42,299 bases of DNA from Lentilactobacillus diolivorans DSM 14421 (lineage in GTDB: Bacteria; Bacillota; Bacilli; Lactobacillales; Lactobacillaceae), in NCBI RefSeq assembly GCF_001434255.1, contig NZ_AZEY01000104.1:30719-73017 (forward strand), read 5' to 3'. Numbering within the stretch: the stretch's first letter is position 1; every line of letters begins with the position of its first letter. The notes below the pieces were generated by a model, which was not told where the DNA came from, made no database searches, and saw only the letters and a list, made by a program, of their open reading frames with translations. Of the stretch, positions 1,033-30,016 are shown piece after piece. The position numbers and the translations under genes were made by a program.

Positions 1033-1047
1033 AGGAGTTTTCATATA

Positions 1048-1231
1048 AAAAGGCGGTTAACTTCCAGAGTACAACTGAATTATCCGAATATGTTCCGGGT
1101 GGAATAGTGGGATAATTCAGTTGTACGGCAGGAAGTTGCCTTTTATCTCACGTTTTCGCTTGATAATAGTTGTGATTACACAAAACGGGACTGGGACAAA
1201 ATTACTTTTGTCCCAGTCCGTTTTATTTTTT
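1048..1231 (+). repeat. Structured repeat copy 1 (type I) with 3' tail and terminator
   Basis: This is a member of the modular repeat family described in the findings. P1 is AAAAGGC 1048-1054 with GCCTTTT 1138-1144, extended outwards imperfectly. Then come GGTTA 1055-1059, P2 ACTTCC 1060-1065 with GGAAGT 1131-1136, and AGA 1066-1068 facing GGCA 1127-1130. P3 is 17 bp perfect, 1069-1085 with 1110-1126. A 3' tail (CACGTTTTCGCTTG and onward) leads to the terminator GGACTGGGACAAAA/TTTTGTCCCAGTCC followed by TTTTATTTTTT. The total length and order match copy 2 at 21858-22039. I see no clear promoter in front of it. Whether it is transcribed as a separate RNA is inference. Confidence 0.7.
1188..1231 (+). 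terminator. Intrinsic terminator of repeat copy 1
   Basis: A 14-bp stem GGACTGGGACAAAA with TTTTGTCCCAGTCC (1188-1219), four-base loop, then TTTTATTTTTT at 1221-1231. It faces the convergent ArsR gene, so it may also shield that gene from readthrough. Confidence 0.8.
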
Positions 1232-1261
1232 AAACCATTTAAATCTGTCTGATCACAGCGA

Positions 1262-1682: not shown

Positions 1683-1714
1683 TGTGGAAGTTTGGGGGAA
1701 TCTTTATAATCAGA

Positions 1715-2099
1715 GTGATTTAACAAGCGGTTAGCTCCCAGAATATAAACAACATTAGCTAGTATTCCTGATTTTGGAATGCTAGCTAATGTTGTTTATA
1801 TGGCCGGGAGTTGCTTGTTAAATCACGTTTCAACTCGGTAGTCAGATCATTCCCGCATTTGGAATACTGGCTGGCATTGCTTATATGGCCGGGAGCTGCT
1901 TGCTGGCGCACGTTTCGACTCGATAAAAAATATTCCTGATTTTGGAATGCTAGCTAATGTTGTTTATATGGCCGGGAGCTACTTGTTAAATCACGTTTTC
2001 TACGGATAGTCAGATCATTCCCGCATTTGCAATACTGGTTAGCATTGCTTATATGGCCGGGAGCTGCTTGCTGGCACCCGATTTAGCTCAATAAAAATA
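1715..2099 (+). repeat. Structured repeat array (type II), one full copy plus three 3'-half units
   Basis: The first copy is complete, 1715-1826. P1 is 14 bp (GTGATTTAACAAGC with GCTTGTTAAATCAC), followed by GGTTA 1729-1733, P2 GCTCCC with GGGAGT (one G-U), AGA facing GGCC, and a 20-bp perfect P3 (1743-1762 with 1782-1801) topped by ATTCC/GGAAT. The 3' half then recurs. The ATTCC marker sits at 1764, 1849, 1932 and 2017, spacings 85, 83 and 85. The units alternate as A-B-A'-B', so a 168-bp dimer (1764-1931 and 1932-2099) has been duplicated. No terminator tail follows. The array occupies the divergent region between the ArsR gene and the oxidoreductase gene. Confidence 0.8.
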
Positions 2100-21117: not shown

Positions 21118-21236
21118 GGGTTCAATCATCTGTGTGGTGGTAATAGCAATTAAGCGGCTAGTCTACCACACTCATATTCACACTGACAAAGTTCAGGGAA
21201 ACTATTGAGTAATTCATAATTGGAGGAATCAGCATA

Positions 21237-21821
21237 ATGTCGGAAGAGAAGACTAAGACATGCGTAATGTGTGGTAAAACCATCCCCGCATATTCCAACT
21301 TTTGCCCTTATTGCGGCGCAAAACAGCCTTGGCTTGAAGAAGATGAGATCAAGAATCCGGATGTCAAACGAATTCTAAAGTGGTACCAAAAGCCATTCGG
21401 TAAACTGGTTACATATATCGTTGCCTTTCTAATGATCATGGCAGTCGGCAGCATGTTCACGCTGCACGATGGTCCAAGCCACAAAACCATTCAACGGGAA
21501 CTCAATCAATACTTATTCAACTCCCGGACCAATACCCCATTTGGTAAGAAGCCTAAGATTAAGGTTGATAAAAATAAAGGAACTTCAATCAAGATTTCCA
21601 AATCCAGTCAAGCTCTTAAAGATTTGAAGAATAATAAGCCTGCCACTTGGAATCAATTTGTTGTCCGAGTTCAACGACGCTCCAGCTCATTCCACAATGT
21701 TTACGTTAATCAAATGTATTCAAAGATCACCGTCACTGCTAAAAAGAATAAAAAATTAACTTACTTAAAAGTTAATCAAGGCAAAGTAACTTACAACGTT
21801 GCTGATCACATCAAAAAATAA
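21237..21821 (+). CDS. Zinc-ribbon single-pass membrane protein
   Basis: A 194-residue protein. A zinc ribbon is at the N-terminus (C-VM-C at residues 9-12, CPYCG at about 23-27), followed by an acidic linker. One membrane helix lies at about 56-75 (VTYIVAFLMIMAVGSMF), and a basic C-terminal domain of about 115 residues should be outside the cell. The outer part is rich in lysine and beta-like (KIKVDKNKGTSIKIS, KITVTAKKNKKLTYLKV). Zinc-ribbon proteins of this layout are common in lactobacilli, with unknown functions. ATTGGAGG precedes the ATG by 11 bases. A full structured repeat follows directly after the stop. Confidence 0.8.
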   Translation: MSEEKTKTCVMCGKTIPAYSNFCPYCGAKQPWLEEDEIKNPDVKRILKWYQKPFGKLVTYIVAFLMIMAVGSMFTLHDGPSHKTIQRELNQYLFNSRTNTPFGKKPKIKVDKNKGTSIKISKSSQALKDLKNNKPATWNQFVVRVQRRSSSFHNVYVNQMYSKITVTAKKNKKLTYLKVNQGKVTYNVADHIKK

Positions 21822-21857
21822 ACCGGCTAACTGATTTTCGATGCTGGTAGGAGCAGA

Positions 21858-22039
21858 GCGGGACAAAAGGCGCTTAACTTCCAGAGCGTAATCGGATTAT
21901 CCGAATATTCAGGGCTTGAATATTTGGATAATTCGGTCACGCGGCAGGAAGTTGCCTTTTGTCCCGCGTTTTTGCTCGGTAACAATCGTGTTTAAACTAA
22001 CGGAGACTGGGTAAAACGACTATTGTCCCAGGCCTTTTT
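21858..22039 (+). repeat. Structured repeat copy 2 (type I, best complete copy)
   Basis: P1 is 14 bp perfect, GCGGGACAAAAGGC (21858-21871) with GCCTTTTGTCCCGC (21954-21967). Then follow GCTTA 21872-21876, P2 ACTTCC with GGAAGT, and AGA 21883-21885 facing GGCA 21943-21946. P3 spans 26 bases per strand (from 21886) with three G-U pairs and one A-C mismatch. G-U pairs point to function as RNA. The 3' tail (GTTTTTGCTCGGTAACAATCGTG) leads to CTGGG/CCCAG and CCTTTTT at 22007-22039. Length and order match copy 1. It lies between the zinc-ribbon gene and the esterase gene, filling most of the gene-free stretch 21822-22158. Confidence 0.8.
22007..22039 (+). terminator. Intrinsic terminator of repeat copy 2
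   Basis: CTGGG (22007-22011) pairs with CCCAG (22027-22031), possibly extended by G-U pairs, and is followed by GCCTTTTT. It corresponds in position to the stronger terminator of copy 1. Confidence 0.6.
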
Positions 22040-22158
22040 AGTATCGTCACCAATGATTAAAAGTTAATCTTGAAATTAATCATTCCATCAAATACAATTG
22101 ACTTCATTAGCCTTAAGATCAACGAAAATTAAAATCAACTAACAAGGAGCTGGCTACA

Positions 22159-23034
22159 TTGCCTTTGCGTCATTCAGAAGTAGATATTAATGCCCTGACC
22201 GCTTCGATGTATTTAAAAGGAGCCGCACCTAAATCCAGTTCGCCAGCCAAAAAATTGGCCATCATTTCTGCAGGTCAATCCAACATTGATGGCAGAGTTC
22301 CCCTTGCCGATCTCCCTGATGGTATCAACATTCCGTTCAATAACTGTTACTATTGCTCAAACTACACGCCTCATTATTTGCAGGGAAAATTTGAAAACGG
22401 GATTCATGCCGCAGACTTAGACGCTAATCGCTGGGGATTTGATTTAATCACCTATTACTATTTAACACAGTTGGCTCAACAGGAAACTTACGTCATGAAA
22501 TGGTCACAAGGTGGGACATCGATTGACCCAACCGGTGATAATATTAATCATTGGACGGCGTTTTACGAACAACTCGATTCTCCTGATCATTCACTGCTGT
22601 GTCACTTTGAACATCTTATCCGTCAATGTATGTTTGCCAACGCTGATAAAATCGAAATTCGGGCCATGCTTTGGCATCAAGGCGAAGCCGACCGACAATC
22701 TTACTCGCCACTTGCCGCAGAACATTATTATCAGAATTTAAAGGCCGTGTTCGCGTACTGTCGCGGGATCATCGGTAACAGTCAACTGCCGATTTTTACT
22801 GGCACAATCAGTCATTCCTCAGAACAATTTGATCCGGTTATTGATGCCATCATTCGTCAAATTGGGCAAGAAGATCCCAACGTTCACTTAATCGATATGG
22901 CCGGAGCGTCATTACTGGACAACTGGCATTTTGACAGTCTTAGCAGTACGTACTTTGGTAAAGCAATCTATAATCAAATGATCTCGGCGGGAATTGTTGC
23001 TGGTCCACAGGTTTCATTGAAACGACCCTGGTAA
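22159..23034 (+). CDS. SGNH-type carbohydrate esterase, sialate O-acetylesterase-like
   Basis: A 291-residue esterase of the SASA/CE6-like SGNH group. Block I is ISAGQSNIDGR with the nucleophilic serine in GQSN. The oxyanion segment is KWSQGGTSID, block III-like WHQGEADR, and the catalytic Asp-x-x-His is LLDNWHFDS near residue 253. It should remove acetyl groups from sugars. There is no signal peptide, so it acts in the cytosol, perhaps on imported oligosaccharides. Translation begins at TTG 22159 behind AAGGAG. No sugar transporter or glycosidase is adjacent. It is followed by the strong terminator at 23055-23106. Confidence 0.8.
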   Translation: MPLRHSEVDINALTASMYLKGAAPKSSSPAKKLAIISAGQSNIDGRVPLADLPDGINIPFNNCYYCSNYTPHYLQGKFENGIHAADLDANRWGFDLITYYYLTQLAQQETYVMKWSQGGTSIDPTGDNINHWTAFYEQLDSPDHSLLCHFEHLIRQCMFANADKIEIRAMLWHQGEADRQSYSPLAAEHYYQNLKAVFAYCRGIIGNSQLPIFTGTISHSSEQFDPVIDAIIRQIGQEDPNVHLIDMAGASLLDNWHFDSLSSTYFGKAIYNQMISAGIVAGPQVSLKRPW

Positions 23035-23054
23035 TCGTCATTTAAATTTAAAGT

Positions 23055-23106
23055 AAAACATCTTCGAATTGTAACGGTGAAAAACCGCAATTCGAAGATG
23101 TTTTTT
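23055..23106. terminator. Bidirectional terminator between esterase and ATPase genes
   Basis: AAAACATCTTCGAATTG (23055-23071) pairs with CAATTCGAAGATGTTTT, a 17-bp perfect stem with an inner CGG/CCG pairing and TTTTTT. It serves the convergent genes on both sides. Confidence 0.85.
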
Positions 23107-23156
23107 ATTATTAGCAATGCTGGTTAGCTTTTAACATTAAATTCACGTCAAATCTA

Positions 23157-25952
23157 TCATGATGGGTCATTCGAATGCCTGGTAGAATATCTTCTAAGCA
23201 GCCACTTTCGCCCCTCTTCCAGCAAAAATAGTGGTACTGGAATACAAAATAGAAAGCCCCACTCGATGATATTTAACGGGCCCGTGTTAAAGACGGTTTG
23301 CAGGAACGGTACGTACATCAATAATGCAATTAACCCAATTTCAACACCGATTCCAAGCCAAATTCGTCGATTACTAAATAATCCAACTGAAAAAACAGAC
23401 GATATTTGAGTCCGGCAATTCATTGCGGCCGCAATTTGGCAGAAAACGATTGCGGCCAACGTCATTGTTGTCGCTTCAGCATAACCAACTCCCGATGACG
23501 CCAACGATATATTCGGCCAACCGTTTTCATGATTAACAAAGAAATACGCACCAGTGGAAATAATTGAAGCAATCAAGCCATAAAGACCAAATGCTTTCCA
23601 AATAATCGACTTATTTAATAGATGACTATCTTGGGGACGTGGTGGTTGATTCATAATGCCAGGCTCGCTCTTCTCGATGCCTAATCCTAAAGCCGGCAGT
23701 AAATCAGTTCCTAAATCAACAGTCAAAATCTGCATAACAGTTAATGGGAGCGGGACCAAGCCGCGAGTTAACAGAAAAACAACTGATGGTGCGGCTTCAG
23801 GCATGTTACTGTTCAAAATGTAAAGCAGAAACTTCTGCAGATTGCTATAAACCGTTCGGCCTTCTTCAATCGCACTAACGATTGAAGCAAAATTATCATC
23901 CGTCAAAATCATATCGGCAGCATCCTTTGCAACATCAGTTCCGGTTACCCCCATCGCAATGCCAATATCAGCACGTTTTAACGCGGGTGCGTCGTTAACC
24001 CCGTCACCGGTAGAAGCTACAATTTCACCATTTTTTTGACACATTGAAACGATCCGAAATTTATGTTCTGGCGCAACTCTGGCAAAAATTACTTCGCCTT
24101 TTACAGCCTGACGTAACGCGTCATCACTCATGTTATCCAATTGATCACCCGTAATAACTGATGCTTTATCAGACGTAATGCCGATCCGAACAGCAATACT
24201 TTTTGCGGTAATTGGACTATCCCCCGTCACCATGATAATTCGGATTCTTGCTCGCCGACATTTCTTAACCGCGTCAAAGATTTCCGGCCGCGGCGGATCT
24301 GACATGATCGCTAGCCCAACAAAGATCATGTGAGTTTCCGCATTTCCAATTTGAAAATTATCTAAAGAAACATGGATTAAAGGATCATCCTGGTCAACCT
24401 CCCGATAGGAAAATGCTAATGAACGTAACCCCTGCTTAGCATATTTTTCATTGACTGCCATAATGTGCTGTTTATCAGCATCCGTTAACGGCCGAACAAT
24501 CCCATTGTCCAGAATTCGATCACAGATCAATAACTCACTGCTCAAGGCACCCTTTGTATCAATGATTACTTGGCCTGTCTGATTTTTAGTAATCGTTGAC
24601 ATCAATTTTCGATTAGAATCAAAGGGCAACTCTTTTAATCGCGGATAAGTCCGATTTTCAGTTTTGACATCAATCCCAGCCTTTCGGGATAAAATGACCA
24701 ATGACGCTTCCGTAGATGTTCCGAGAATCTTCGCTTTTTCTTCACCGGTTCCTTCATCGACCTCAGTGTCATTATTTAACGTCGCAATCCGGAGCAATTG
24801 AGATAAATCCGGCTCTTGGGTTAGCTCAACCGGTCGATCATCAACCTGAATTTGACCATTGGTAAAGTAGCCGGTGCCGGTTACATCATAATCCTTCGCT
24901 GCCAACCAGAGATGATTAATCGTCATTTGGTTTTGTGTTAACGTACCCGTCTTATCCGAACAAACGACAGTAGTCTGACCCAACGTTTCAACACTACTCA
25001 AATTTTTTAAAAGTGCGTGTCGTTTAGCCATTCGCTGGGTTCCTTGTGCTAATGATAACGTAACAGTTGGCAACAGTCCTTCTGGAATAAAGGCAACAAT
25101 CATCCCCAGTGCAAAGATAAACGATTTTGCGATTGGATAGTGGACAAAAAAGATTGCCAATAGAAAAAATGCAATTCCAATTAATAACGCAATGATGGTC
25201 AGCTGACGCGTTAAATGATTCAACTCTCGCTCCAGTGGATAAACGGTTTGTTTTTGTCCCTGAGCGAGTTTCGCAATTCGTCCAAATTCCGTCTTCATCC
25301 CAGTTGCGAAGGCAATGCCATCAGCTGTACCACTAGTGACCGTCGTCCCAGCAAAAACAATATTTTGTTGTGCGAATTCACCATCACCCTGTTTATACTC
25401 ATCGGTCTTTTCAACCGGTAAAGACTCACCGGTTAACGATGATTCGTCAACCTGTAATGATGAACACTTGAAGACTCGTGCATCGGCTGGAATTGAATCA
25501 CCAGCTTGAATTTTAAATAAGTCACCAGGAACCAATTCTTCAACCCGAATTTGCTTAATTTTCGCGCCACGAGTCACTTTAACATATGATGGCAGCATCT
25601 TTTTTAATGAATCGGTGGCCTTTTGAGCAGCGTGCTGCTGCCAATACGAAAAACAACCGTTGATGACATTGACCGCCCAAATTGCAATTCCTAATTCTGG
25701 CATCCCGGCAATCATTGCAACAATACCGGATACCCACAACAAAATTGCCATTAAGGAAGTAAAGTTTTCAATAAAAATTAAAATTTCAGATCGTTGCTTT
25801 GCCGTTTGAATGGTATTCGGCCCATATTTTTCAAGGCGTTGCCCAGCTTGATCCTCTGTCAAACCGGTTGAATCGGTCCCTAAAGTCTTCATTAAATCGG
25901 CCACTGCGGGCTTTGCTGCGTTATTCAGTTTAATTGCTTCACTATTCTTCAT
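23157..25952 (-). CDS. P2-type cation-transporting ATPase with Na,K-ATPase-like signatures
   Basis: A 931-residue P-type ATPase with the full set of P2 motifs. These are TGES (174-177, actuator), IPEGLL in helix 4 (289-294), phosphorylated D333 in CSDKTGTLT, MVTGDSPITA, and GDGVNDAPAL in the hinge. Ten membrane helices can be counted. Helix 6 reads TVDLGTDLLPALGLGIE, nearer the DLGTD-P of Na,K-/H,K-ATPases (P2C) than the NLVTD-x-P of calcium pumps, and helix 4 ends LLPTVTLSLA. It therefore exports or exchanges a cation, perhaps Na+ or Ca2+, but the ion cannot be fixed from sequence. No beta subunit is visible. GTGGGGATG lies upstream of the ATG. It is transcribed alone. Confidence 0.88.
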   Translation of the reverse strand: MKNSEAIKLNNAAKPAVADLMKTLGTDSTGLTEDQAGQRLEKYGPNTIQTAKQRSEILIFIENFTSLMAILLWVSGIVAMIAGMPELGIAIWAVNVINGCFSYWQQHAAQKATDSLKKMLPSYVKVTRGAKIKQIRVEELVPGDLFKIQAGDSIPADARVFKCSSLQVDESSLTGESLPVEKTDEYKQGDGEFAQQNIVFAGTTVTSGTADGIAFATGMKTEFGRIAKLAQGQKQTVYPLERELNHLTRQLTIIALLIGIAFFLLAIFFVHYPIAKSFIFALGMIVAFIPEGLLPTVTLSLAQGTQRMAKRHALLKNLSSVETLGQTTVVCSDKTGTLTQNQMTINHLWLAAKDYDVTGTGYFTNGQIQVDDRPVELTQEPDLSQLLRIATLNNDTEVDEGTGEEKAKILGTSTEASLVILSRKAGIDVKTENRTYPRLKELPFDSNRKLMSTITKNQTGQVIIDTKGALSSELLICDRILDNGIVRPLTDADKQHIMAVNEKYAKQGLRSLAFSYREVDQDDPLIHVSLDNFQIGNAETHMIFVGLAIMSDPPRPEIFDAVKKCRRARIRIIMVTGDSPITAKSIAVRIGITSDKASVITGDQLDNMSDDALRQAVKGEVIFARVAPEHKFRIVSMCQKNGEIVASTGDGVNDAPALKRADIGIAMGVTGTDVAKDAADMILTDDNFASIVSAIEEGRTVYSNLQKFLLYILNSNMPEAAPSVVFLLTRGLVPLPLTVMQILTVDLGTDLLPALGLGIEKSEPGIMNQPPRPQDSHLLNKSIIWKAFGLYGLIASIISTGAYFFVNHENGWPNISLASSGVGYAEATTMTLAAIVFCQIAAAMNCRTQISSVFSVGLFSNRRIWLGIGVEIGLIALLMYVPFLQTVFNTGPLNIIEWGFLFCIPVPLFLLEEGRKWLLRRYSTRHSNDPS

Positions 25953-26200
25953 TATAAATAAATCATCCCCACTTTTTGATCATGATATGCGCGTTATTCA
26001 ATCCAACTTGATTATAAGGCACCCAAGGCAAAGTAACAGCTGTAAAGGAAAAATTCATTTCAAATTTATTTAAGATCCCGAATAGGTGACTGAAGCAGGC
26101 CTTGAAAATCCATCATTATTATTCAACCACCCTGTCATTACCATGCTTATTGTCAAATAAAGCGAGGGATTGCTTTCAAAGTAAACCAGAGTAGCTCAAA

Positions 26201-26436
26201 GCGATTAGACCCCAAAATACAAGCCCCATAAACTTCATATTCCCGATTTTGGAATGTTAAGTTTATAGGGCGTGTATTCTGAGGTTGACTTGCTGGTCCA
26301 TGTTTTAATATAGGCAAGATAATTCCGATATCTGGATAATTTGTTTACGCGACAGGAAGTTGTCTTTTATCGCGTATTTCGCTCGGCAATCGTGTTTACT
26401 AACAGAGAATGGTTAAAACGATTATTATCCCAGCCG
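26201..26436 (+). repeat. Decayed hybrid structured repeat
   Basis: The left part is type II. GATTA (26203-26207) replaces GGTTA, P2 is GACCCC, AAA replaces AGA, and P3 (from 26217) still pairs at about 17 of 19 positions across ATTCC/GGAAT. P1 and P2' no longer pair well. The right part (from about 26320) is a type I 3' half: GGATAATT, CGACAGGAAGTTGTCTTTT, GCTCGGCAATCGTGTTTAC, and a decayed terminator ending TTATCCCAG. It fills the gene-free stretch 25953-26478 with the ATPase promoter region (a TATAAT on the minus strand near 26012-26017). Confidence 0.6.
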
Positions 26437-26478
26437 CCACCAGATAAACGTTGTTCACGCCATTTTATTTTATAATCC

Positions 26479-27906
26479 TTATCGGGCAGAAGACTGCTCA
26501 ATTGCTCCGACTTCTGGAAGGTTAACCCGTTTGGCATTCGTTAAAACCTCAGGTGAAAATAGTTCTTCAACCAGCGCTGTCGGCAACAGTCGCTCCCCTT
26601 CAACGATTCGTTTTACAGACTCATGAGTCGCAACCGCTTTTTTAATTAAAGCGGTTGTTTTTTCATAACCAAGCAATGGTGATAAAATTGTCGCGGCAAT
26701 TGATGAATGTTCAACTTCTGAGCGGCAATAATCAACATTAACTTTGATTCCCTTAACACAGTTATCAACCAACGTTTCGATCGCATTGGTTAGATGTTGC
26801 TCACTCATTAAAATATCCCGAAACATAATTGGTTCAAAGGCGTTTAATTCCAATTCGCCATTTTCAGCCGCCATCGTCACTGTAACGTCATTACCAATGA
26901 CTTCATAAGCAACCTGAACAACCACCTCTGGAATAACCGGATTGACTTTGCCAGGCATGATTGACGACCCCGCCTGTTGCTTGGGTAACGATAATTCATT
27001 CAAGCCAGCTTGCGGACCACTGGAAAGCAAGCGCAAATCATTGCTGAACTTCGAAAGGTTAACAGCAAGGCCCTTCATGACTCCTGAGAACGCGACAAAT
27101 GCGTCACTGTTCTGAGTTTCATCAACCAAATCATCGGCCTGTTTTAATGATAAATGAGCGACCTGATTCAAAGTCGGAACGATGTTAGCCTGATATTCGG
27201 GAGTCGTATTAATTCCCGTGCCAATTGCTGTGCCACCTAAATTAACGTTACTCAAAACAACTTCAACATGTTTTAGTCGAGCTAAATCACGTTTAAACAT
27301 TGACGCATATGCTTTAAAGGTACGGCCATAGGTCGTTGGTACCGCATCCTGCAATTGAGTACGACCAACTTTGATGGCCTTTTCATACTCACTTGATTTC
27401 ACCATTAAAGCATCAACCAAATCGGCAACCATTGTTTGTAATCCGGGTAACAATTTAAGCATTGCCATTTTACCGGCTGTCGGATAACTGTCATTGGTCG
27501 ACTGAGATTGATTAACGTCATCATTGGGATGAATATCAAGTGCCGTTTTCCCACCCTGTGCGCTTATCTTCATCGCTAAATGGGCAACAACTTCATTTAC
27601 ATTCATATTAGTAGATGTGCCTGCACCACCCTGAATGGCGGGTACAATAAATGGTTCGAAATCATTTGAGAACAATAATTGATTGCAAGCTGAGACAATA
27701 TAGGCAGCCTTTTCTTTATTCAAAGTCCCTGCAGCCTGATTAGTCAGAGCAGCCGCTTTTTTGATTTGAAGATAACTCTTTAAAATTGCTGGATTCACTC
27801 GTTCTTCAGTAATTGGAAAGTTATGCTGTGCTCTTAATGAATGGATGCCATAAAGTGCTTCATCCGGTACAAACATTTCACCAATGCAATCTTTTTCAAT
27901 TCTCAT
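26479..27906 (-). CDS. aspA: Aspartate ammonia-lyase (aspartase)
   Basis: A 475-residue member of the fumarase/aspartase family that reversibly converts L-aspartate to fumarate and ammonia. Signature segments are GGAGTSTNMNVNEVVAHLA, VNQSQSTNDSYPTA and the catalytic loop GSSIMPGKVNPVIPE, whose serine is the general base. The N-terminal DEALYGIHSLRAQHNFPI and the ENGELELNAFEP segment fit aspartase rather than class II fumarase. Fumarate formed could feed succinate or malate. ATG follows GAGGG by 10 bases. A strong promoter lies 54-80 bases upstream. It is a single-gene unit. Confidence 0.9.
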   Translation of the reverse strand: MRIEKDCIGEMFVPDEALYGIHSLRAQHNFPITEERVNPAILKSYLQIKKAAALTNQAAGTLNKEKAAYIVSACNQLLFSNDFEPFIVPAIQGGAGTSTNMNVNEVVAHLAMKISAQGGKTALDIHPNDDVNQSQSTNDSYPTAGKMAMLKLLPGLQTMVADLVDALMVKSSEYEKAIKVGRTQLQDAVPTTYGRTFKAYASMFKRDLARLKHVEVVLSNVNLGGTAIGTGINTTPEYQANIVPTLNQVAHLSLKQADDLVDETQNSDAFVAFSGVMKGLAVNLSKFSNDLRLLSSGPQAGLNELSLPKQQAGSSIMPGKVNPVIPEVVVQVAYEVIGNDVTVTMAAENGELELNAFEPIMFRDILMSEQHLTNAIETLVDNCVKGIKVNVDYCRSEVEHSSIAATILSPLLGYEKTTALIKKAVATHESVKRIVEGERLLPTALVEELFSPEVLTNAKRVNLPEVGAIEQSSAR

Positions 27907-27959
27907 ATTTTCAAGCCCTCATTTCATGTAATATCTTTTAACATCAACTTACGAAATAT

Positions 27960-27987
27960 AATATATACCCATTTCACAAAATGTCAA
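27960..27987 (-). promoter_or_regulatory. Promoter of aspA
   Basis: On the minus strand TTGACA (27987-27982), a 16-base spacer and TATATT (27965-27960) form a near-consensus sigma-A promoter 54 bases before the ATG. A second AATATATACC-ATT segment near 28015 repeats the -10 area and might be a second start or regulator contact. Confidence 0.7.
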
Positions 27988-28167
27988 CCACTATTCAATA
28001 GAATGCTTTAATTTAATATATACCAATTCATAACATCGTGATGATACTTATCCTCATTTTTGAAATTATTTTAGAGAATTAGGCTTTGAGTGTCATTAAT
28101 CATAACATGTGTCAGGTGCTACATTAAAAATCAGTAAAGTATCATCCGGATGCCTCCTTCACTTGGT

Positions 28168-28195
28168 TTGTCTGTTATTCTTAGAATAGTAAAAT
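28168..28195 (+). promoter_or_regulatory. Promoter of the lipoprotein gene
   Basis: TTGTCT (28168-28173), 16 bases, TAAAAT (28190-28195), 26 bases before the ATG. The divergent gap 27907-28221 otherwise contains only the aspA promoter. Confidence 0.55.
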
Positions 28196-28221
28196 GAATT
28201 TAATTGGGGGATTTATTAATT

Positions 28222-28845
28222 ATGAAAAAGATACTCACATTTAGTGCGATTTTATTAGCAACAATTTCATTAGCAGCCTGTGGGGGCAAAAATAGCTCAG
28301 ATGATTCCAAGAATGCCCAGCAAGCCAGCCAATCATCAACATTGAAAGTTAAAACTAATAAGGGAATCACCCATGCCGCTTATGATAAAATTGCAACCGC
28401 AAATATTACCTCAGCCAAAGGTGGGACTGACGAACAAATTGTCAAGGATGCCTTTGGCAAACCCAATAGTACCAGCAAAGTAACGGTTAATGACGGTAGC
28501 AAAAAAGCCGCCGTTCAATATGCCTGGACGAACCTCAATAAGCGCTTTAGGGCCTCAGCGGTTACCGTCGAATTTTTAAAAGGTCATGCCGTTGGTAAAG
28601 GCTACATTGAAGCCGGCCTTCATCAGCGCCGCTATATCGCAAAGGATAACATCAATCGAGTTAAAACCGGCGATACCTATGCAACGGTCGTGAAAAAGTT
28701 GGGAACCCCGGCAAGCGAATCTCTGACCGGAAAGGGATCACTTTCTGCCAGAAGTGTCACCTATGCAACGGGCAAGGACGGCAAAGCAATTAGTTTGATG
28801 TTTACAGGTGATAAATTAATATCAAAAACAGCCATCAATAAATAA
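28222..28845 (+). CDS. DUF3862-type lipoprotein
   Basis: A 207-residue lipoprotein. ATG 28222 behind GGGGGA is chosen over an in-frame TTG 18 bases upstream, because it gives a proper signal sequence MKKILTFSAILLATISLAAC with a lipobox cysteine at about residue 20. After a Ser/Asn/Gln-rich linker come two related modules of about 80 residues: GTDEQIVKDAFGKPNST... and VKTGDTYATVVKKLGTPAS. Both show the G-D/x-(T)-Y-A-x-V-x-x-x-LG-x-P pattern of the BLIP-like DUF3862/SmpA fold. Such proteins sit on the outer membrane face and probably bind other proteins. It precedes the largest repeat array. Confidence 0.8.
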   Translation: MKKILTFSAILLATISLAACGGKNSSDDSKNAQQASQSSTLKVKTNKGITHAAYDKIATANITSAKGGTDEQIVKDAFGKPNSTSKVTVNDGSKKAAVQYAWTNLNKRFRASAVTVEFLKGHAVGKGYIEAGLHQRRYIAKDNINRVKTGDTYATVVKKLGTPASESLTGKGSLSARSVTYATGKDGKAISLMFTGDKLISKTAINK

Positions 28846-28852
28846 AATCAGA

Positions 28853-29390
28853 GTGGACCAGCAAGCGGTTAGATCCCAGAATATAAGCCCCCTAACTTGG
28901 TATTCCCGGTTTTGGAATATCAAGTTAGGGGGCTTATATGGCCGGGATCTGCTTGCTGGTCCACGTTTCAGCTAAGTAACAGGACCAGCAAGGTATCCCG
29001 ATTTTGGAATATCAAGTTAGGGGGCTTATATGGCCGGGATCTGCTTACTGGTCCACGTTTTCAGCTAAGTAACAAGGCCAGCAAGGTATCCCGATTTTGG
29101 AATATTAAGTCAGGGGGCTTATATGGCCGGGGTCTGCTTGTTGACCCATGTTTCGGCTAAATAAAAAGTTAAACAAGTTATTCCCGATTTTAGAATGTCA
29201 GGTTAGGGAGCTTATATGGCCAGGGTATACTTGCTGGTCCAAATTTTAATTAAGTAACAAGTTCAGCGAGATATTCTAAATTTGAATATTTGGATAATTC
29301 GATTACACGGCCGGAAGTTGCCTTTTGCTTGGTAACAATCGTGTTTACACTAACAGAGAGTGGAAAAAACAACAATTGTTCCAGTCACTT
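28853..29390 (+). repeat. Structured repeat array (type II full copy, three 3'-half units, type I end)
   Basis: The first copy, 28853-28964, has a 14-bp perfect P1 (GTGGACCAGCAAGC), GGTTA 28867-28871, P2 GATCCC/GGGATC, AGA 28878-28880 facing GGCC, and a 19-bp perfect P3 (28881-28899 with 28921-28939) capped by TATTCC/GGAATA. Three units then repeat the 3' half, with the loop marker at 28902, 28995, 29088 and 29180 and a last partial at 29273 (period 92-93). These units keep a P1 left arm (GGACCAGCAAG) but lack GGTTA, P2 left and P3 left. The end is a type I 3' half with AACAATCGTGTTTACACTAAC and a weak GTGGAA.../TTCCAGTCAC hairpin. It fills the gene-free stretch 28846-29440. Confidence 0.8.
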
Positions 29391-29440
29391 TACATCCATA
29401 GGGTAACGATGTTATCTTTTAGTCAAAAGGAAGTGTTTTA

Positions 29441-30016
29441 ATGGCTGGAAAAAAGAATCATACCAAAGACGAAATTGTCTCACTGGCAATTCGTCAAATC
29501 AAAGAAACCGGATACCAATCCATTTCATTACGGCGCTTATTAGGTGACTTGCATTTAACAACCGGATCGTTTTACAAACACTTTGACAATAAAAATGATC
29601 TGTTCACAACCATTTCGATCACCTTATCAAGTCAACTCAGTCAGCATGCTCGACAATTCGTTCTGGATGCAAAACCAAGTACCCCACTTGCGTCTTTAAT
29701 TGTCCTTGGTGAATTTATGATTACCCAATTTCAGGAGCAATCTAATTTAACAGAATTCTTATTTTATAATCCAAGCGTTCTGGCAGTTTATCAAAGTGAT
29801 CAAAAAGATCAGTTTCCACTGCTGAATGATGTCCAAGCACTCATCCAGAATATTAAAGTGACTTATCATATTAGCGACTCAGTGGATAATCTGTTCATTA
29901 AGGTTTGGTCATTCATTCAAGGCTACGGCATTCTGATTCAAAATGGCGTTGCTAAATATGATCACAAATTATTAACTAATGCCGCAACTGAATTGATTGG
30001 AGTTGAACACCCATGA
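29441..30016 (+). CDS. TetR-family transcriptional regulator
   Basis: A 191-residue TetR repressor. The N-terminal helix-turn-helix is clear: ISLRRLLGDLHLTTGSFYKHFDNKNDLF at about residues 26-53, where the usual T-G-S-F-Y-x-H-F turn is exact. The C-terminal ligand domain is all-helical and not assignable to a known drug. It overlaps the next gene by four bases (ATGA at 30013-30016), so the regulator and the quinone-reductase-like enzyme are made together. It probably represses its own operon in response to a quinone or other electrophile. AAAGGAAG precedes the ATG at an 11-base spacing. Confidence 0.88.
   Translation: MAGKKNHTKDEIVSLAIRQIKETGYQSISLRRLLGDLHLTTGSFYKHFDNKNDLFTTISITLSSQLSQHARQFVLDAKPSTPLASLIVLGEFMITQFQEQSNLTEFLFYNPSVLAVYQSDQKDQFPLLNDVQALIQNIKVTYHISDSVDNLFIKVWSFIQGYGILIQNGVAKYDHKLLTNAATELIGVEHP

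Follow-up and report, generated by a model that had tools for sequence, protein, structure and literature searches.

A widespread family of covarying hairpins, often docked behind stop codons, in Lactobacillaceae

A stretch of 42,299 nucleotides from Lentilactobacillus diolivorans DSM 14421, referred to here as the window, carries several long imperfect hairpins whose stems differ from copy to copy while their internal loops hardly do. The question raised by the locus at 21855 is what such an element is: an RNA (or single-stranded DNA) selected for its fold, as an earlier note proposed, or a mobile hairpin. That note described four copies with the order P1, G(G/C)TTA, 6-bp P2, AGA, P3, loop, P3', GGC(A/C), P2', T, P1'. 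This architecture is present at all four of the named places, and all four copies are real, but the count was too low, since a fifth full copy lies at 26188. The note also treated 21858..22039 as a single feature, but two are covered: the element proper, a 119-nt imperfect hairpin on the plus strand (21855 to about 21973), and a distinct terminator-like hairpin 3' of it. The element starts 33 nt past the stop codon of ORF 21237-21821. In all, the window holds five full hairpins, three of one subfamily (A) and two of another (B), together with eight 3' halves that have no 5' half of their own (Table 1).

Table 1. Hairpin elements, extra halves and accompanying terminator-like hairpins in the window.
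Feature	Position	Strand	Evidence
Full hairpin, subfamily B (GGCAGGAAGTTGCC), 5' foot lost	1046..1158	+	direct reading, blast, half-HMM matches
Terminator-like hairpin GGGACTGGGACAAAA..TTTTGTCCCAGTCC, 3' of the subfamily B copy at 1046	1186..1232	+	direct reading; related stretches elsewhere in the window
Full hairpin, subfamily A, AGAGTG to CACGTTTC, with 3' tail	1712..1843	+	
Three extra 3' halves (about 1849-1925, 1931-1998, 2017-2093); array 5-3-3-3-3	1849..2093	+	
Reported element: full hairpin, subfamily B, with 3' tail	21855..21980	+	
Terminator-like hairpin 3' of the reported element	about 22004..22039	+	
Fifth full hairpin, subfamily A, somewhat decayed; antisense to both adjoining genes	26188..26307	+	
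Extra 3' half, subfamily B, then terminator-like stretch from about 26398	26328..26386	+	
Full hairpin, subfamily A; starts 4 nt past the stop codon of ORF 28204-28845	28850..28981	+	
Four extra 3' halves (28992-29073, 29085-29164, 29172-29258, then subfamily B about 29271-29327); array 5-3-3-3-3-3	28992..29327	+	
Terminator-like hairpin at array end	29349..29391	+	

Three further features of the window may be recorded here. A putative IS110-family transposase-like ORF, named by eye, occupies 138-947, directly 5' of the subfamily B copy at 1046. An 87-codon ORF from the mechanical ORF list, 28897-29160, lies wholly within a hairpin array, and ORFs of this kind inside arrays are likely spurious gene calls. 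The GGGACTGGGACAAAA..TTTTGTCCCAGTCC-type terminator-like hairpin recurs 3' of subfamily B halves, at 1186-1232, 22004-22039, 26398-26433 and 29349-29391, and similar terminator-like hairpins stand 3' of elements in other species (loci L043 and L046, for example); it may represent another repeat family that accompanies subfamily B.

Preservation of the fold was assessed in an unconstrained MAFFT alignment of 48 copies found by blast in the same genome (alignment A1), with the structure taken from one of its rows. The earlier note held that both arms of each helix change together, and in this alignment 40 of 46 pairs have changes on both sides, with 407 such cells against a shuffled mean of 106; all five covariation measures exceeded those of all 500 shuffles. 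Fully 96.5% of cells are paired, a figure that falls to 39-45% once the partner is slid by one to three columns. Across these blast-found copies the GCGNTTA loop, the CCAGA junction and the two feet, AGAG(T/C)G at the 5' end and CACGTTT at the 3' end, are mostly at least 90% conserved. Two asymmetric internal loops interrupt the stem, GGTTA opposite T and AGA opposite GGCC; their bases, said earlier to stay fixed, nearly do so but not strictly, the second base of GGTTA being variable and most often G. Examples that were folded gave energies of about -43 to -92 kcal/mol. Covariation holds across genera as well: in a second alignment (A4), whose 66 copies represent seven named genera along with a few unplaced genomes, 34 of 38 pairs in the RNAalifold structure have changed on both sides, several showing all four Watson-Crick types in good number. 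The invariance of the feet and first loop in that alignment is not evidence, because both feet and the GCG-TT-G of the first loop were fixed by the search pattern that found the family copies. Directly 3' of an ABC-transporter stop codon at one locus (L266, genome G005) lies a plain hairpin that resembles the elements in its loop and has an ACACGTT foot, yet has no internal loops; it is possibly a decayed or precursor form.

The family is numerous in its own genome, and its members have mostly diverged. Blast with a single window copy, that at 1712, gave at least 63 matches there (the best 40 of 178 candidates were scored), 53 of the 63 being only 71-80% identical to the query, so that recent identical duplication does not account for them. 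A covariance model built on the 48 own-genome copies (R1) finds at least 150 non-overlapping places in the same genome, all with E below 1e-17. A search of relatives, suggested earlier as a check, matched this model in 24 of 60 genomes, own genome included, and in 17 of the 24 Lentilactobacillus genomes. The seven Lentilactobacillus genomes with no R1 match measure 1.2-2.1 Mb, against 2.0-3.3 Mb for the matching ones; one of the seven (G002) does have a copy behind glpK, a divergent one not caught by the stricter filters. In the nearly closed genome G006, the R1 list for contig C1 (2,508,572 bases) shows elements to be sparse in the first 0.36 Mb and includes none past 2.19 Mb; the minus strand looks favoured, in a list that includes reverse-strand double matches.

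Beyond these relatives, an exact pattern searched against 84,980 bacterial and archaeal genomes returned at least 113 stretches. All 80 matches listed belong to Lactobacillaceae, and the genera among them are Levilactobacillus, Lentilactobacillus, Secundilactobacillus, Lactiplantibacillus, Loigolactobacillus, Lapidilactobacillus and Pediococcus, plus three unplaced. A family-wide model (R2), with at most the best 11 places scored per genome, matched 59 of 295 Lactobacillales genomes at E <= 1e-6, 19 in Lactobacillaceae and 40 in other families. Covariance models reward any long hairpin (reverse-strand matches reach about 32-63 bits), so per-genome counts may double-count, and outside Lactobacillaceae weak matches were counted as members only if read. 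Nine such loci were read (L060, L063, L064, L254-L257, L259 and L260), and in most of them the GCG-TTAG loop, P2 and the feet can still be recognised in part; the exceptions are L257, without feet, L259, without TTAG, and L064, which is doubtful. The family, then, is widespread in Lactobacillaceae, exceeding a hundred copies in the richest genomes, and has relatives in other Lactobacillales. Ten plasmid records with copies were found, of which four were inspected, and the records listed have no annotated feature on the element stretches. Two queries of a phage collection and one exact pattern run on viral contigs gave no match.

No named RNA family claims these elements. Rfam 15 has no match in the window at gathering score, and below it only microRNA-like and chance-level matches; in 16 further loci it gives six matches (two T-box, a tRNA, BsrC and two group II introns), none overlapping a placed full element. 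No description of the family was found in the literature searched, from which subscription journals were largely absent, and the available parts of PMC2267715, PMC3049150, PMC2817692, PMC12320835, PMC12306157 and PMC8266576 do not describe it.

Which strand carries the fold can be judged from mismatches, since under neutral decay G·T and A·C mismatches are expected equally often. The defined helices of A1, a count that never took in the foot, contain 86 G·T and 29 A·C cells, with a G·T majority in 33 of 48 rows and an A·C majority in 7. Among 83 distinct family copies, aligned with a pairing score neutral between the two mismatches and counted only at single positions flanked by Watson-Crick pairs, there are 136 G·T and 33 A·C; 59 elements have more G·T, 8 have more A·C and 16 are ties. 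The foot was excluded from this count because the search pattern itself fixes one G·T there. An automatic test on 37 own-genome copies gave 47 G·T and 42 A·C, but 33 of the 42 A·C represent one fixed position in the AGA/GGCC loop, where there is no helix, and the remainder is 46:9. Copies are related and events in these counts are not independent. A three- to fourfold excess of G·U over A·C indicates that the fold of one strand is under selection, and we conclude that it is the AGAGTG..CACGTTTC strand whose fold is kept, whether in RNA or in single-stranded DNA, two possibilities that the excess cannot tell apart.

Placement relative to genes is strongly directional. Neighbouring genes were called by a simple longest-ORF script. 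A same-strand gene lies upstream of 38 of the 48 own-genome copies, and two of the other ten have no upstream ORF in the fetched stretch. In the family set, chosen by an exact pattern fixing both feet and most of the first loop, both neighbours could be called for 70 of 83 matches. A same-strand gene precedes the element in 45 of these 70, and in 30 of the 45 the element starts within 25 nt of the upstream stop codon; uniform placement in the same intervals gives a mean of 5.9 and a maximum of 15 in 20,000 draws. The reverse arrangement, in which a convergent gene has its stop codon no more than 25 nt from the 3' foot, was seen once in 46, and of the 25 copies (among the 70) with an opposite-strand gene upstream, just one lies within 25 nt. 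A stricter match in 37 regions of the own genome, a non-random sample drawn from the best blast matches to one window copy, puts 23 of the 32 elements that have a same-strand upstream gene no more than 25 nt from its stop, with the stop codon inside the element in eight; an opposite-strand gene is upstream in 5 of the 37. Conservation in the family set begins at the foot, with a sharp 5' boundary at AGAG(T/C)G. In the own-genome set the bases just 5' of the foot are A-rich, with C at -1 in 65%, and no strong fixed target motif was found upstream of the elements. The four inspected plasmid copies follow genes for adenosine deaminase, FabI, an NCS2-type symporter and an ABC protein, in each case starting no more than 16 nt past the annotated stop. 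At another locus (L260:1501-2420) the element comes after a tRNA-like 3' end and has a group II intron match a short distance upstream.

Many elements are followed by additional 3' halves. Separate profiles for the 5' and 3' halves, run on the 37 own-genome regions and the window, identified 48 arrays, all beginning 5-3: 16 are single elements, 14 have one extra 3' half, 12 have two, 4 have three and 1 has four, and one is a 53-53. The extra halves comprise 54 3' halves and no 5' halves, the array types 553, 353 and 535 being absent from all 48; five lone 5' matches and one lone 3' match lie apart from arrays. A motif scan behind 78 family copies found extra 3' halves at 11 loci (0.7 expected from shuffles; upstream control, 2) and extra 5' halves at 3 (0.05 expected; upstream, 1). 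The order 53-5, in which an orphan 5' foot or 5' half follows a copy, occurs in several loci of other families and a few in Lactobacillaceae, and the strict 5-3-3 rule therefore holds for the own genome and not for the whole family. The first 3' half pairs best with its own 5' half in 36 of 47 cases (-62.6 versus -35.9 kcal/mol). For 22 of 54 extra 3' halves, the 5' half of the same array is a better pairing partner than any of 46 others (mean -38.9 versus -28.0 kcal/mol), so local duplication also contributes; a single origin by slippage for all extra 3' halves found no support, as 22 of the 54 look local and the rest do not. Many of the own-genome arrays listed end in a subfamily B half plus a terminator-like hairpin, and locus L010 has an intact A-then-B pair. 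Both observations fit newer copies lying 5' of older ones whose 5' halves were then lost.

Comparison of orthologous gene ends points to gain and loss, copies differing in presence between species at all four ends compared. Behind fabI, one of 18 Lentilactobacillus genomes has the element. Behind glpK, 5 of 23 do (one contig ends 3 nt past the stop); in an additional genome a copy lies about 280 nt farther along in inverted orientation. The fabI and glpK ends without an element carry other sequence or a plain terminator-like hairpin. Behind pyrC, the element is present in the own genome and in degraded form in one relative, 12 of 13 matches having been read. At the fourth, an ABC-transporter gene, the own-genome protein ends MNRVS*, its last three residues and stop codon read from the element, while the orthologues of five relatives continue into tails of their own; judged from these sequences, we take this as a probable insertion into the gene end that replaced the native C-terminus. 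The direction, gain, is inferred from one genome having the element and the others lacking it. A target duplication of the MITE kind was not defined, no near-identical empty site being present among the sites compared. The elements are dispersed repeats that come and go at orthologous sites, so that selection for mobility as single-stranded DNA could preserve the fold just as well. The earlier argument from covariation to a selected RNA thus stands in its first part, a covarying family for which no prior description was found; RNA as the selected form is not established by it and is one of two readings.

The machinery of spread seems to be neither of the two kinds looked for. Seventeen genomes, mostly drafts, have at least 30 R1 matches. 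Y1_Tnp (PF01797) has no match in ten of them and RVT_1 none in twelve, the own genome included; both are absent from eight, one of which is G006, with two contigs. It seems that neither a RAYT nor reverse transcription is needed for the standing copies, and retro-copying was rejected on the absence of RVT_1 from those twelve. The own genome has three IS200-like matches. An extinct or unrelated mobilising factor is possible. Elsewhere, on the L. brevis plasmid pSAC12_A (L237:2557-2570), an IS1165-like copy of the ISL3 type sits inside an element's hairpin, and in L. backii (L238) an ISL3 transposase lies just 3' of an element; ISL3 elements may favour such hairpins.

Taken together, these results make it probable that the family consists of interspersed, non-autonomous mobile hairpins of about 120 nt, similar in kind to REP and BOX elements. 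The chief competitor is a cis-regulatory 3' UTR RNA beneficial to the host, which would stabilise mRNA 3' ends or tune termination and be kept by selection gene by gene. Directional stop-codon docking and the strand-specific tolerance of G·U argue for it, as does a crude scan in which terminator-like sites followed 13 of 31 stop-proximal copies (the yardstick being 9 of 29 window genes); the same scan found no such site before those 31 copies, which carries little weight, the preceding stretch being at most about 30 nt. Patchy presence between close species at the four genes compared argues against selection of this sort. The G·U bias, moreover, appears whether copies are stop-proximal (56:12, n=31) or not (60:18, n=39), and is therefore by itself no proof of action on the local mRNA. 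We regard a host-beneficial 3' UTR RNA as somewhat unlikely.

Correlated change in two arms need not reflect selection at all. Template-switch correction during replication changes both arms together, long hairpins are its typical substrates, and a palindrome kept perfect in this way would show the covariation observed. It would, however, be expected to erase the asymmetric loops (GGTTA/T and AGA/GGCC), which are conserved in the blast-found copies of A1, and it predicts G·U equal to A·C where 86:29 and 136:33 were found; it is highly improbable as an explanation. Still a little less probable is a family of intrinsic transcription terminators, in spite of the location behind stop codons, the great stability of the hairpin and the similar GAGTG with which terminator-like hairpins behind glpK begin in some relatives. 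The hairpin ends in CACGTTT(C/T) (its first eight bases pattern-fixed in the family set and nearly so in the own-genome set), followed by a mixed tail and no direct U tract; a run of just three T makes a terminator role for the element itself unlikely. A distinct terminator-like hairpin often stands 3' of the element, and a scan of window positions 21200-29500 found 9 terminator-like sites against 8.3 by chance, those in elements being short internal stems. Integron attC sites, hairpins recognised by structure as tyrosine recombinase substrates, offer another parallel in their diverse, covarying stems, fixed unpaired bases and position right behind stop codons. They occur in cassette arrays, however, whereas the copies here are scattered over the chromosome behind ordinary genes such as glpK, fabI and pyrC, and an attC-like site is the least probable of these alternatives.

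If the family is one of mobile hairpins, its behaviour might be explained as follows. Recognition would be of the folded single strand, by way of the feet and the two asymmetric internal loops and not by stem sequence, and for that reason the stems could drift with pairing kept. Copying would be the work of a separate mobilising factor, and the element would land, or be retained, between stop codon and terminator. Newer copies would come to lie 5' of older ones, whose loss of 5' halves would leave arrays of the form 5-3-3-3. A stronger proposal is that of a new class of mobile hairpin, recognised by fold only, that spreads with neither Y1 transposase nor reverse transcriptase, targets translated genes at their 3' ends, docks at and sometimes rewrites stop codons, and grows polar arrays in which one 5' half faces several competing 3' halves; as a whole this is doubtful.

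Once in mRNA, a hairpin placed directly against the stop codon may well influence termination at the upstream gene or decay from its 3' end, by analogy with E. coli REPs; at 0-25 nt past the stop it would meet the terminating ribosome and any 3' exonuclease. A significant proportion of E. coli REPs lies 1-20 nt behind an ORF, according to the available parts of PMC12306157 and PMC8266576, and the former, in the text available, reports that they lower translation solely when less than 16 nt from the stop. A REP-like effect on translation in the present bacteria is, on this analogy, conceivable though somewhat short of an even chance. Whatever their effect, the elements alter the 3' ends, and at times the C-termini, of ordinary genes, and they provide a test case for how a hairpin with freely changing stems can still be mobilised.

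Among known systems, the closest likeness is to the REP/BIME sequences of E. coli and gammaproteobacteria with their RAYT (TnpA-REP), which are, in the parts of the sources available, likewise high-copy, extragenic imperfect palindromes with a conserved stem irregularity. REPs, however, measure 20-40 nt, against about 120 nt here, and their foot, a GTAG tetranucleotide or similar (PMC2817692 and PMC8266576, as far as available), is absent from the present family. The latter further differs in lacking Y1_Tnp in 10 of the 17 match-rich genomes, in its half-element arrays, in stems that vary widely within one genome, and in its Lactobacillales host. Lactic acid bacteria have an abundant hairpin family built otherwise than the E. 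coli REPs that act from behind the stop. BOX of Streptococcus pneumoniae (boxA-boxB(n)-boxC) is, in the accessible part of PMC3049150, a modular interspersed hairpin with a variable tandem module. Its modules are not those found here, one 5' half and n 3' halves; set apart by description, the present family differs in that the repeated module is the hairpin's own 3' half and in its stop docking. Efa-1 of Enterococcus faecalis is a repeated stem-loop family in the same order, listed as type I in a table of PMC2267715, but is reported in the available part of that source as 163 nt with two adjacent stem-loops, a comparison by description alone. MITEs share terminal inverted repeats with one another and with an IS, whereas P1 differs between copies here. 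Interspersed mobile hairpins are known as a kind; what sets the present family apart is its fold, its docking at stop codons that are sometimes rewritten, its arrays of half-elements and the lack of a transposase.
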